This document shows, in pieces, positions 22,151 to 24,596 of a stretch of DNA of 24,596 bases (position 1 is its first letter; each line of letters starts with the position of its first letter). The translations under genes and the position numbers were made by a program. The DNA is taken from the IMG/VR virus record IMGVR_UViG_3300004457_000224, positions 1 to 24,596 of that record. One strand, written 5' to 3'. Below the pieces are notes generated by a model that worked only from the letters and a program-made list of their open reading frames with translations, was not told where the DNA came from and did not search any database. The stretch is from a virus.

Positions 22151-22452
22151 CGTTTTTTACGCTCTCGTTTAGAAGTTTCACTCTTCATACTGCCATCAGC
22201 ATTGCGTGAGAAACTCCGGTTTTGTCCTGGGTTTTGTACAAAGAGATTGGAAAGGCTATTAGTTCCTCCACGAGAAACTGCAGTTTTATGTCCTACATCG
22301 CCCTTAAGAGCTGTCATTGCAACTCCCTTTTTCTTAGCTACAGCGGCTCTAGCTGCATGGCGTTTAGCCCTGTCAGCAGCACGTGTTCCGTGGTTGCGGT
22401 CCCAAGCATCTTCCTTCTTGTAATCACGTTTCCCGTTGGTCATGTACGGCAT
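22147..22452 (-). CDS. Small basic HNH-like protein (101 aa)
   Basis: The N-terminal part is Lys/Arg-rich (KRDYKKEDAWDRN, RAADRAKRHAARAAVAKKKG). The C-terminal block DVGHKTAVSRGGTNSLSNL (52-70), then NPGQNRSFSR, resembles the beta-beta-alpha core of HNH nucleases: H55, N69 and N78 correspond to the H-N-N/H positions, but the usual first catalytic pair (DH) is here GH, so activity is uncertain. HNH proteins beside terminases assist packaging in some phages. The AAAGGA site 7 bases upstream supports the ATG at 22452. It overlaps the cupin gene by 29 bases and terL by ATGA. Confidence 0.7.
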   Translation of the reverse strand: MPYMTNGKRDYKKEDAWDRNHGTRAADRAKRHAARAAVAKKKGVAMTALKGDVGHKTAVSRGGTNSLSNLFVQNPGQNRSFSRNADGSMKSETSKRERKKR

Positions 22453-22936
22453 GGTGTTCCTTTATTGTTTGTTGGTGCTCCTCACCTACAGGTTCTCCTG
22501 CCCAATTGACAGTTACAGAAGAAGGTTCTTGAGTATTCCATTTCTCAAAGCTAAGAAAAGCTCCACCTTCATCAAACACTTCCAGAGAGTGTCCAGTACT
22601 GGAGGGATGGGTAATAAACTGTCCTAAAAGAAAATGACGTCCGTTAGGACCTTCTTTTTGTAAATCACGTAAAGACTGAGTTAGAACCCCATCAAACGAA
22701 ATTTCTAAATTGCCACCTAAATAGACAAAGAAACTATCCACTCCTGGGTGATGATGGTTGGGAGAAGAGGTATTAGGCTTACAGATGTAAAGCTCTACCT
22801 GATACTGACCCTCACGAAAAAGCACTAGAGAATAGGCAATGTCCGTAGTAAACACTGGATTTTTAAAAGGAGGTCTAATGGTACATCCATGAGAAAGCCA
22901 CCATTTTGCAAACTCTTCTACTGTGTTATACGTCAT
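22424..22936 (-). CDS. Cupin-fold protein (170 aa)
   Basis: A single cupin-like domain. The metal-site motif NHHHPGVDSFFVYLGG (60-75) has H61/H63 and D67 in the place of the usual Glu, and the second part ITHPSSTGHSLEVFDEGGAF (108-127) supplies H116. Preceded by strands YSLVLFREGQYQVELYICKP. Cupins bind metal ions or small ligands and act as dioxygenases, isomerases or sensors; the reaction here is unknown. I chose the ATG at 22936 (overlap of 11 bases with the small terminase stop, AGAAAG upstream). The alternative starts (22957, and a TTG at 22963) lack a ribosome site. Between two packaging genes, a metabolic cupin is unexpected. Confidence 0.65.
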   Translation of the reverse strand: MTYNTVEEFAKWWLSHGCTIRPPFKNPVFTTDIAYSLVLFREGQYQVELYICKPNTSSPNHHHPGVDSFFVYLGGNLEISFDGVLTQSLRDLQKEGPNGRHFLLGQFITHPSSTGHSLEVFDEGGAFLSFEKWNTQEPSSVTVNWAGEPVGEEHQQTIKEHHAVHDQRET

Positions 22937-23510
22937 GTTCTGTACTTTCTGTCTCATTGGCAACTACATCGACAACATCAACTCGCTCTGCAAGAGGTGT
23001 CTGGGGTTTAACGAAGGTGGCAAAGCGTTCAGCTAGCTTTAACAACCGGTCTCCGTCTTGAATGTCCTGTGCTAGAGGATTGTTATTCTTTTCTAAAAGC
23101 TCTTGTTTAGCCATGAGGTCAACAGAAACTTTATGAGCATCTTTCATAGAAACAAGCTTGCGTCGCATTTCACCCGTCTTCTGGTCATAGATGAAATCAC
23201 CATTGGTTAGCCTGTCTTCCACAACTGTGAGAGCAGCATTGGCAATTTTCTTAATTTTACCAGATAGCTCAACCTTCTCTTGGAGCTTTATCTCCTCAAC
23301 CTGGTTGTTCCACCACTCCGTTGCTTTCCATTGCCGGAGAGTAATTTCAGGAATGTTGAGAATACGTCCTGTCATCGCAAGATTGCCTAACAAGAGATAG
23401 CTTTGAATTGCTTCAATTTTCTGCTTATCACTCCAACGACTTTGTACAGCAGTTGTTTTTCGTGGTTTGTAAGCTAAATGCTTACTTCGTTCATTATCTG
23501 AGAGAGCCAT
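22926..23510 (-). CDS. Terminase small subunit-like DNA-binding protein (194 aa)
   Basis: Likely recognises phage DNA for packaging. A helix-turn-helix lies at about 28-68 (SDKQKIEAIQSYLLLGNLAM, GRILNIPEITLRQWKATEWW), followed by helical oligomerisation regions (about 72-140) and an acidic C-terminus (VVDVVANETESTEHDV). First gene of the late operon, two genes before terL, as expected for terS. An AAGGA site lies 7 bases upstream of the ATG, and the 5' leader hairpin and consensus promoter are 30-80 bases upstream. The identification is by HTH, size and position, since small terminases diverge strongly. Confidence 0.75.
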   Translation of the reverse strand: MALSDNERSKHLAYKPRKTTAVQSRWSDKQKIEAIQSYLLLGNLAMTGRILNIPEITLRQWKATEWWNNQVEEIKLQEKVELSGKIKKIANAALTVVEDRLTNGDFIYDQKTGEMRRKLVSMKDAHKVSVDLMAKQELLEKNNNPLAQDIQDGDRLLKLAERFATFVKPQTPLAERVDVVDVVANETESTEHDV

Positions 23511-23533
23511 AGTGTTTCCTTAAACAAGCGAGA

Positions 23534-23551
23534 GCTGCTATTTTTAGCAGC
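23534..23551 (-). promoter_or_regulatory. 5' leader stem-loop of the late operon
   Basis: Arms GCTGCTA (23534-23540) and TAGCAGC (23545-23551) form a perfect seven-pair stem with a four-base AAAA loop in the transcript. The expected leftward transcription start is near 23555, so the RNA would begin only a few bases before the stem. Hairpins at an exact 5' end protect transcripts from RNase E/RppH-type decay; that role is inferred here. Confidence 0.65.
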
Positions 23552-23561
23552 CTATACATAT

Positions 23562-23590
23562 ATTATACCACAAAAAGATAAACTTGTCAA
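23562..23590 (-). promoter_or_regulatory. Consensus sigma70 promoter for the leftward late operon
   Basis: On the minus strand TTGACA (23585-23590) and TATAAT (23562-23567) are both perfect consensus hexamers with an ideal 17-base spacer. The start should be near 23555. It drives the small terminase gene and probably the whole packaging/structural operon. A promoter this strong usually needs repression or timing control, and two palindromes lie directly upstream. Confidence 0.92.
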
Positions 23591-23593
23591 TAG

Positions 23594-23629
23594 ATTTCTA
23601 GAAAAAGTGGTATGTATTTCTAGAACAAG
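23594..23629. promoter_or_regulatory. Twin TTCTAGAA palindromes, candidate operators
   Basis: Two copies of the 14-base motif ATTTCTAGAAMAAG (M = a or c) lie at 23594-23607 and 23616-23629. Each contains the palindrome TTCTAGAA, with centres 22 bases apart (two helical turns), just upstream of the -35 box of the late promoter, at about -45 and -67. This arrangement fits a dimeric regulator binding cooperatively on one face of DNA. Confidence 0.6.
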
Positions 23630-23660
23630 AAGGTTTGTTGTTAGACAAACAACCTTTCTT
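23630..23660 (+). terminator. First tandem hairpin, rightward terminator-like
   Basis: Left arm AAGGTTTGT (23630-23638) pairs with ACAAA and ACCTT-side bases to 23656, nine pairs with a three-base bulge, followed by TTCTTT. It reads as a terminator only in the rightward direction. It ends in TTTCTTTGGA, the same tail as the next hairpin. Confidence 0.5.
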
Positions 23661-23700
23661 TGGAGCTACGACTGTAAGGAGTAGCTCTTTCTTTGGATTT
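23651..23700 (+). repeat. Left copy of an imperfect direct repeat bracketing the AT-rich island
   Basis: Shares, in the same order, AACCTT, GCTACGACTGTA (23665-23676), CTTTCTT (23687-23693) and GATTT with 24555-24589. Between the second and third blocks this copy has ten extra bases that form the second arm of the hairpin; the right copy lacks them. Confidence 0.6.
23663..23694 (+). terminator. Second tandem hairpin, rightward intrinsic terminator
   Basis: Arms GAGCTAC (23663-23669) and GTAGCTC (23681-23687), seven perfect pairs with an eleven-base loop, are followed by TTTCTTT. Together with the preceding hairpin it should stop rightward read-through coming from the left (antisense to the late operon) before the rightward promoter at 23751. 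The left arm and loop contain the 12-base core repeated near the right end. Confidence 0.65.
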
Positions 23701-23714
23701 GTTTAAACAAGATG

Positions 23715-23734
23715 TTTTATCTTTTATGATAAAA
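23715..23734. promoter_or_regulatory. AT-rich dyad upstream of the rightward promoter
   Basis: TTTTATC (23715-23721) and GATAAAA (23728-23734) are perfect inverted arms separated by six bases, a 20-base dyad lying about 17 bases before the rightward -35 box. It could be an operator. As an RNA hairpin it would be weak because it is AT-rich. Confidence 0.4.
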
Positions 23735-23750
23735 TATTTTGTTTAATCTA

Positions 23751-23778
23751 TTGACATTTATAAAAAGTATGATATACT
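23751..23778 (+). promoter_or_regulatory. Rightward sigma70 promoter, divergent from the late promoter
   Basis: TTGACA (23751-23756) and TATACT (23773-23778) with a 16-base spacer. The stretch ATCTATTGACA is identical to the one containing the -35 box of the leftward promoter. It points into the AT-rich island and the GIY-YIG gene, and beyond the window perhaps to the early genes. Confidence 0.7.
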
Positions 23779-23853
23779 AATATATATATATTATATATAA
23801 GTATATATATATATATATATAAGTAATAATATATATGTATTTATTATTATATA
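23779..23853. repeat. TA-rich low-complexity tract
   Basis: Almost pure alternating T and A, including a 19-base TA run at 23802-23820 and the palindrome TTATATATAA. It holds no gene. It marks the left edge of the AT-rich island, and it is easy to melt and prone to slippage or mis-assembly. With the promoters, operators and hairpins to its left it fills the otherwise gene-free stretch 23511-23853. Confidence 0.75.
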
Positions 23854-23979
23854 TTATTTCTTTCTTTTCTTTATATTACTTTCTTTTCTTTCTTTACGCG
23901 CCATTGTTTTTTTACAATATATACATTTATTCCCCGAAAAATAATCAGTATATAATTTACAATAATTACAGTATTTCAT
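23854..23979 (-). CDS. Mini zinc-knuckle protein (41 aa)
   Basis: An ORF below usual length cutoffs. It begins MKYCNYCKLYTDYFSGNKC and continues IYCKKTMARKERKESNIKKR. Two CxxC knuckles, C4-C7 and C19-C22, are spaced as in a zinc ribbon, and the tail is strongly basic. Similar CxxC...CxxC plus Lys/Arg tails start homing-endonuclease-associated (Endo VII/HNH-type) proteins in large viruses and phages. A hydrophobic 62-aa frame on the other strand overlaps it and is less plausible. No SD is visible, as also for the GIY-YIG gene; the two are divergent with 82 bases between them. It could be a remnant of a longer nuclease. Confidence 0.5.
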   Translation of the reverse strand: MKYCNYCKLYTDYFSGNKCIYCKKTMARKERKESNIKKRKK

Positions 23980-24061
23980 ATATAATATTAACTATATTTC
24001 ATAATGTTAAATTAAATTTGTAAAATTTATACTATAGTATTTTTTTTCTATATTTATATAT

Positions 24062-24556
24062 ATGATAAAAGGATATATATATAAAATCTCATGTAAATCT
24101 GAAAATGTTAATGAATGCTATATAGGGTCAACAGTTAATATATTAAGAAGGAAAATACAACATAAATATGATTTGAAAAAACAACCTAACAGACCAATAT
24201 ATAAATTTATTAATTCTAATGGTGGTATAGATAATTTTATTTTTGAGACATTATTAGAAGTATATATAGAAAATAGACTAGATTTATTTAAAATTGAAAA
24301 ACAATATATAAAATCAGAAAAAAAATTAATTAATTGTAATGTTCCATGTAGACAAAGAAAAGAATATTATAATGATAATAAAAATATTTTAATTCAAAAA
24401 TCAAAAGATTATTATTATCAAAATCAACAAGAAATATTAAATAAAAAAAAATCAATAAAAATAACATGTGAATGTGGATCAATATTAACTAAAAATCATT
24501 TCAACCGTCATTTAACATCAGATAAACATATAAATTATTGTTCTCTTAATCCGTAA
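24062..24556 (+). CDS. GIY-YIG homing endonuclease with C-terminal zinc finger (164 aa)
   Basis: Site-specific nuclease of the mobile GIY-YIG type. GYIYKI (4-9) and CYIGST (19-24) form the namesake strands, R29 in NILRRKIQHK is the catalytic Arg, and E79 in DLFKIEKQYI with N91 in LINCN completes the core. A Tyr/Asn/Lys-rich helical linker (about 100-130) leads to CECGSILTKNHFNRHLTSDK (136-155) with C136, C138, H150 and H156, a C2H2-like zinc motif for DNA binding. This architecture is known from large DNA viruses and some phages. It is far more AT-rich than the operon, has no SD, and lies between direct repeats. It may act free-standing. Confidence 0.85.
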   Translation: MIKGYIYKISCKSENVNECYIGSTVNILRRKIQHKYDLKKQPNRPIYKFINSNGGIDNFIFETLLEVYIENRLDLFKIEKQYIKSEKKLINCNVPCRQRKEYYNDNKNILIQKSKDYYYQNQQEILNKKKSIKITCECGSILTKNHFNRHLTSDKHINYCSLNP

Positions 24557-24589
24557 CCTTGAGTTGCTACGACTGTACTTTCTTGATTT
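24555..24589 (+). repeat. Right copy of the imperfect direct repeat
   Basis: Begins within the GIY-YIG stop codon. It holds AACCTT (24555-24560), GCTACGACTGTA (24566-24577), CTTTCTT (24578-24584) and GATTT (24585-24589) in the same order as the left copy at 23651-23700, but without the ten bases that close the left hairpin. Base composition returns to the phage average here. Confidence 0.6.
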
Positions 24590-24596
24590 TCTAAAT

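Follow-up and report, generated by a model that had tools for sequence, protein, structure and literature searches.

An apparent GIY-YIG homing cassette beside a homopyrimidine mirror repeat in the divergent control region of a tailed phage

The linear IMG/VR record IMGVR_UViG_3300004457_000224 (24,596 bases, analyzed over its whole length and referred to here as the window) comes from a tailed phage, and its right end is the divergent control region. The best explanation for its organization, which we consider probable, is that a GIY-YIG homing cassette was inserted next to an ancestral promoter, leader and mirror repeat, and that the short direct repeats on either side of the AT-rich stretch are copies of a leader motif. 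The homing gene is of an ordinary, known kind and its setting is unusual. The novel part is the conserved mirror repeat, to which a putative function is assigned below from sequence comparison.

Results

The control region and its relatives

The minus strand of the window carries the structural half of a tailed phage, with large terminase (phrog_38), portal and capsid genes recognized by Pfam and PHROG profiles. The predicted TerS (22926-23510) was named from its place upstream of TerL and from its homologues in relatives. Many relatives were found among viral contigs, with large terminases 69-83% identical to that of the window; among named records, Alcaligenes phage vB_Af_QDWS535 (OK172329) and Caudoviricetes sp. 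ct2os315 (MW202796) come closest. A cupin-like ORF (22424-22963, minus strand) lies between TerS and a conserved small gene, and no counterpart of it was found among the relatives examined. The features of the control region, with promoters predicted from their consensus matches, are as follows.

23562-23590, minus strand: leftward promoter of the TerS/structural operon, TTGACA-17-TATAAT, matching the consensus at 12/12 positions and shared by relatives
23594-23629, unstranded: two near-identical copies of ATTTCTAGAA(A/C)AAG (ATTTCTAGAAAAAG), 22 nt apart, with a palindromic core (TTCTAGAA), between the divergent -35 boxes
23627-23697, plus strand: two hairpins, the second with TTTCTTT on either side; contains the left repeat copy
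23703-23746, unstranded: 19-bp AT-rich hairpin directly upstream of the rightward promoter (z -5.7)
23751-23778, plus strand: ancestral rightward promoter, TTGACA-16-TATACT, matching the consensus at 11/12 positions
23779-23856, plus strand: ancestral AT-dinucleotide leader, found in relatives including OK172329
23857-23895, plus strand: homopyrimidine mirror repeat, composed of TTTCTTTCTTTTCTTT (23857-23872), the loop ATATTAC (23873-23879) and TTTCTTTTCTTTCTTT (23880-23895)
23854-23979, minus strand: 41-aa C4 (CxxC...CxxC) ORF, its N-terminal part in the cassette and its C-terminal part antisense to the mirror repeat
23897-24556, plus strand: inserted cassette of ~660 bp, left edge at 23896-23903 and right edge at 24554-24557
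24062-24556, plus strand: GIY-YIG nuclease gene, 164 aa, with a C-terminal Cys2His2-like motif; probable free-standing homing endonuclease
24555-24596, plus strand: right flank, a phage-like tail with the right repeat copy (12-mer at 24566-24577), where the contig ends

The paired copies between the -35 boxes look like a repressor operator pair. The plan of the double-hairpin element at 23627-23697 (pyrimidine arm, hairpin, pyrimidine arm) is also that of the leaders of three relatives (L110, L118 and L122).

The region to the right of TerS was compared in about 50 relatives. A divergent promoter pair, with a spacing of 6-130 nt, was present in most of the 49 tested. The rightward promoter of these relatives, of the TTGACA-16/17-TATAAT type, runs into a nearly pure A/T stretch of 20-133 nt, which in about one third of them is followed by a TTTCTTT-type tract and then, commonly, by a GC-rich GCGAGGC element. 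About 40 relatives have the divergent promoters and the AT-rich leader without an inserted GIY-YIG gene, among them vB_Af_QDWS535, in whose record (OK172329) the rightward promoter and the AT leader are present and the nuclease gene is absent. Since promoter and leader occur in relatives that lack the nuclease gene, positions 23751-23897 of the window are ancestral, and the foreign segment therefore starts only after 23896.

Three further features were seen around this region in relatives. Typical relatives (L041, L033, L063, L036 and L032) lack a convincing gene for about 1 kb past the rightward promoter; this non-coding control region is unusually long and contains conserved GC-rich blocks (GCGAGGCC..GCCGAGC). 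Others (L049, L052, L048, L045 and L120) carry a small ORF between TerS and the leftward promoter, its N-terminus resembling a signal peptide; this ORF, which may be a variable accessory gene, is absent from the window. Genes for tRNAs (Trp, Tyr, Met, Thr and others) adjoin TerS in L037, L040, L042, L060 and L102, a further sign of a variable slot.

The inserted cassette and its edges

The extreme AT-richness noted in a preliminary description of this DNA was borne out: the segment has a GC content of 17-23%, against ~43% for the phage. The cassette was delimited by composition and by the uninterrupted site in L103 and L102. In L103, a tract nearly identical to that of the window runs on as CTTTCTTTACCCTGTAGGCTACGCTCTGCGAGG without a gene; in the window, ACGCGCC comes next, then ~650 nt of very low GC, and after the stop codon ACCTTGAGTTGCTACGACTGTAC. 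The cassette lies directly 3' of the mirror repeat. L103, L102 and OK172329 are all uninterrupted at this site, the comparison resting, in the window, on a right flank of only 40 nt. The site is non-coding leader in most relatives, and none of the relatives has this GIY-YIG gene there. The 40-nt tail of the window bears a weak likeness to the continuation of the tract in L103 (ACCCTGTAGGCTACG), which is suggestive only, the score being reached by 28/1000 shuffles; compared with the leader continuations of all relatives, the 40-nt tail gave a summed score that was not significant.

The preliminary description had named an assembly join as the alternative, i.e., a chimera in which a read of high AT content, from a giant virus for instance, was joined to the phage contig at the low-complexity tract near 23860-23900. 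Such a chimera would account for a segment of 17-23% GC in a phage of ~43% GC, for the low complexity of the join point so close to a contig end, and for the nucleocytoviruses among the best viral structure matches of the encoded protein. However, the tract has the standard form of the lineage right up to the junction, and phages often carry homing genes of foreign composition. An assembly join is further disfavoured because the GC content of the 40 nt behind the stop codon resembles that of the phage, whose own flank has the exact 12-mer, and more, in common with them. We regard a chimera as distinctly unlikely.

A second nuclease gene was found in the same region of L103 (291-791, minus strand). 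Its product, 166 aa long, combines a helix-turn-helix at the N-terminus with an endonuclease VII/HNH domain (phrog_3322, E 9e-27); the gene is placed directly between the leftward and rightward promoters, away from the site of the window's cassette. That two related phages carry unrelated nuclease genes in this control region suggests a favoured slot. Nuclease genes have been reported near essential phage genes (PMC10448857). The insertion of a homing-endonuclease-type gene beside the divergent promoters, as proposed in the preliminary description, is thus supported by the family and fold of the protein, the foreign composition of the DNA, the uninterrupted relatives and the second nuclease gene; the duplicated target that formed the other half of that proposal is not.

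The same description had counted a zinc-knuckle mini-protein among the contents of the segment. The second half of this C4 ORF is the antisense of the ancestral TTTCTTT tract and the other half is cassette, so it is probably a truncated or chance ORF and not a stand-alone gene. It had no family match and no phage match.

The GIY-YIG protein

The 164-aa protein scored 25.6 bits against Pfam PF01541 (cut-off 22.6) and matched the PHROG homing endonuclease families phrog_19446 and phrog_5123. The catalytic Tyr/Gly, Arg and Glu residues are in place; across 13 sequences, Y7, G22, R30, H34 and E79 are invariant and Y20 nearly so. Structure prediction from the single sequence gave a mean pLDDT of 29, and a model from the 13-sequence alignment gave a usable N-terminal domain, with pLDDT 72-96 over residues 1-90. 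A Foldseek search placed this domain with the I-TevI catalytic domain (1mk0/1ln0; probability 1.00, TM-score 0.67 on the target, E 2e-3). In a comparison with viral models, proteins of a Marseillevirus and invertebrate iridescent virus 6 ranked first, followed closely by those of mavirus and a Chlorella virus; Bodo saltans virus was also represented among the top structural matches. The earlier impression of something giant-virus-like is backed by these matches, which do not prove the source.

Sequence searches were less productive. The protein had no close relative in the collections searched (at best ~40-45% identity over part of the domain), tblastn against phages gave weak matches only, a PDB sequence search returned no GIY-YIG match, and a collection scan with the C-terminal coding motif was empty. 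One GIY-YIG relative, at L004:2974-3213 in a 188-kb viral contig, has a TAG codon near its start, an interruption that may indicate stop-codon reassignment.

No Rfam match to a group I intron was obtained at the gene, which lies outside any intron or intein. Both the GIY-YIG gene and the mini-ORF lack Shine-Dalgarno sites, as had been noted; this does not set them apart from the operon, as had also been claimed, 6/20 operon genes tested being without one as well. Translation initiation sites are recognizable for only half of the free-standing genes of T4 (PMC2988022). From its profile matches and modelled fold, the gene is apparently a free-standing homing endonuclease.

The direct repeats

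Four blocks (AACCTT, GCTACGACTGTA, CTTTCTT and GATTT) recur in the same order at two places, as the preliminary description had recorded. AACCTT lies at 23651-23656 and 24555-24560, the right copy starting inside the TAA stop codon of the GIY-YIG ORF. The 12-mer GCTACGACTGTA is exact at 23665-23676 and 24566-24577 and has no further copy in the window, where 0.10 matches with at most one mismatch are expected; two matches arose in 0/100 shuffles. When the last 40 nt were aligned with 23511-23905, the score was 30, a value reached in 0/2000 dinucleotide shuffles. The likeness of the right tail to the left flank is real but gapped: missing from the right copy are the 10 nt AGGAGTAGCT, in which the 3' arm of the left copy's hairpin lies.

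These repeats had been taken to bracket one island, i.e., the whole AT-rich segment (23698-24556) would have entered at GCTACGACTGTA and left a duplicated target. The recurrence of the 12-mer and its flanking blocks in order, beyond chance, is the observation on which this reading was built, but the relatives largely refute it. Between the repeat copies lies ~150 nt of promoter and leader that relatives share, many of the ~40 that lack the nuclease gene having the mirror repeat as well. The left copy is ~220 nt from the real left edge and upstream of the ancestral rightward promoter, and it therefore cannot be the boundary of the insertion. The 10-nt gap between the copies also speaks against a duplicated target, and a relative with a single copy of GCTACGACTGTA at an empty site, which the preliminary description had proposed to look for, was sought and none has one. 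Free-standing phage homing endonucleases move by double-strand-break repair and their cut site is far from the gene, so that flanking target duplications are unexpected (PMC2988022). Entry of the whole island at the 12-mer is accordingly very improbable.

Two related candidates were also rejected. A transposon-type insertion with target-site duplication calls for identical repeats abutting both ends of the insert, which were not found. The combination of the 12-mer and CTTTCTT was considered as a lineage marker; no related viral contig carries the pair, and the five matches given by a viral-contig scan were all unrelated.

The CTTTCTT block and AACCTTTCTTT also occur in the leaders of the relatives L099 and L102. 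As part of the overall explanation given at the outset, and with the same good probability, each of the two direct repeats is a copy of a leader-type motif (a hairpin arm plus CTTTCTT), and together they are not a duplicated target. The earlier observation thus holds in that the repeats are present and exceed chance, and fails in that they do not bracket one insertion: short direct repeats around an AT-rich stretch mimicked an insertion scar, and it was the relatives that put the edge ~220 nt away.

The mirror repeat

In the window, the right arm of the mirror repeat is the left arm reversed and not complemented, with perfect 16-nt arms and a 7-nt loop. Homopyrimidine-homopurine mirror symmetry is the sequence requirement for H-DNA (PMC4666352), and 23857-23895 has this form, with a short loop. 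A search of 1.63 Mb of retrieved loci for pyrimidine arms in perfect mirror symmetry, 12 nt or longer, found these only in the control region of the terminase relatives and in loci that had been selected by the tract. The arms vary between relatives (T runs of 3-4-3, 4-3-3, 4-5-4, 3-3-4-3, 6-3-2, 8-3 and others), and each matches its own partner exactly.

The order of the T runs was permuted in segments picked by TTTC density, not by symmetry, the arms then being taken as the best mirror. The observed summed symmetry was 271, against a permuted mean of 201 and maximum of 228, so that 0/300 permutations reached it; as the compared sequences are related, such counts are not strict probabilities. 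Direct repeats were slightly raised under the same permutation (220 against 202, 4/300). A scan of viral and genome contigs was made with one exact pattern, in which the loop and right arm were fixed and only three bases of the left arm were specified. It returned eight records, seven of which have a mirrored left arm, of 15-26 nt, and five of these seven are phage contigs with large terminases sharing just 24-27% identity with that of the window. For seven loci the underlying records were surveyed: four have a single copy of the element each, and three have none.

The element is ~205-215 nt upstream of the terS start in L197 and L198 (TerS of L198 by phrog_2606), 347 nt upstream in the window, and ~1.9 kb upstream of a gene homologous to terS in L200. 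In L197 and L198 the arms are perfect over 26 nt, and the position at which the two elements differ is the same in either arm. An element of the L198 type was not found in named phages, and a phage element of this kind was not found in the literature searched, the coverage of which was partial. At L200:6627-6690 the perfect arms are 24 nt long and extend to 33/34 mirrored positions. In a Marinimicrobia MAG, the mirror repeat, with the loop ATGTTAC (L204:2114-2150), is found directly downstream of a gene resembling tyrosine recombinases, which may point to a prophage or integrative element.

Slippage in a TTTC/TA-rich tract might also yield mirror symmetry, as a functionless by-product, because simple repeats with self-symmetric units look mirror-like. 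The AT-only leaders are compatible with this, their mirror tendency being weaker and their excess over unit-order shuffles modest (2/150), with inverted symmetry not raised. The pyrimidine leaders are not: their symmetry exceeds the permutation maximum while direct repeats rise only slightly, left arms outside the search pattern are mirrored in 7/8 records, and the outer-arm difference between L197 and L198 is matched on both sides. Slippage is therefore an unlikely source of the symmetry. Symmetry that is kept while the sequence changes argues for selection on a folded, three-stranded form.

Discussion

Under the preferred explanation, the ancestral state would have been a rightward promoter and an AT-rich leader ending in the homopyrimidine mirror repeat. 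A cassette of ~660 bp with one GIY-YIG gene would have entered immediately 3' of that repeat, and its protein would be expressed early from the rightward promoter. The endonuclease would then cut cassette-free relatives during mixed infection, and recombination repair would copy the cassette into the cut relative, as the seg genes of T4 do.

For the mirror repeat, we tentatively suggest that an element kept upstream of terS by matched changes in its arms, in divergent tailed phages, may act through H-DNA in the control region, where it would belong to a replication origin, to a packaging start or to a switch of early transcription; we regard this as a possibility, somewhat less likely than not. 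An origin is plausible in that both complete named genomes have their AT-richest 100 nt and their cumulative GC-skew minimum in or near the control region. The closeness of the mirror repeat to terS makes a packaging start the rival role.

The mirrored arms might instead act in RNA, either as a clamp on a purine-rich strand, as in the U.A-U triple helices of ENE/MALAT1-type RNAs, or as a leader attenuator composed of a hairpin and a U-tract. In L110, L118 and L122, the arms do flank a hairpin with a U-rich tract behind it, shortly downstream of the rightward promoter. However, a small ORF in L197 and L198 has the purine strand as its coding strand, whereas in the window it is the pyrimidine strand that follows the promoter. 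The transcribed strand is thus not constant, which favours a role at the level of DNA, and we consider a role in RNA quite improbable. Were the mirror repeat indeed under selection to form a triplex, it would be one of few natural examples of H-DNA whose function has evolutionary evidence behind it, and small phage leader fragments on plasmids would make the biological roles of H-DNA directly testable.

Several known systems invite comparison. The GIY-YIG endonucleases of the T4 seg type (PMC2988022) are alike in their domain, their intergenic position and the lack of an intron, and T4 free-standing endonucleases are also alike in forming a cassette between conserved phage sequences with poor translation signals. 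In contrast to the seg genes, the window gene is in the leader of the main divergent control region and has an extreme AT content, and its protein, known from sequence alone, has a C-terminal Cys2His2-like motif and giant-virus structural neighbours. The intron-encoded I-TevI has the catalytic-domain fold (1mk0, 1ln0) and catalytic residues in common with the window protein, which is shorter, has a different C-terminal domain and is not associated with a group I intron.

The primary origin of T7 consists of promoters followed by an AT-rich stretch. The control region is alike in that a promoter leads straight into an AT-rich tract, with a GC-skew minimum nearby in two complete relatives, and differs in having a sigma-70 type promoter and a mirror repeat, its role as an origin being putative. 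The G/C-rich intrastrand triplex motif of E. coli and cyanobacteria (PMC4666352) is likewise a recurrent triplex-type motif in intergenic prokaryotic DNA; it is present in many copies and was not found associated with phages, whereas the mirror repeat is T/C-rich and occurs in the control region, once per phage contig examined. With other H-DNA sequences (PMC4666352), the window repeat shares the form of a homopyrimidine-homopurine mirror repeat with a short loop. Unlike them, this candidate triplex is conserved at one genomic place, upstream of terS, while its sequence varies.
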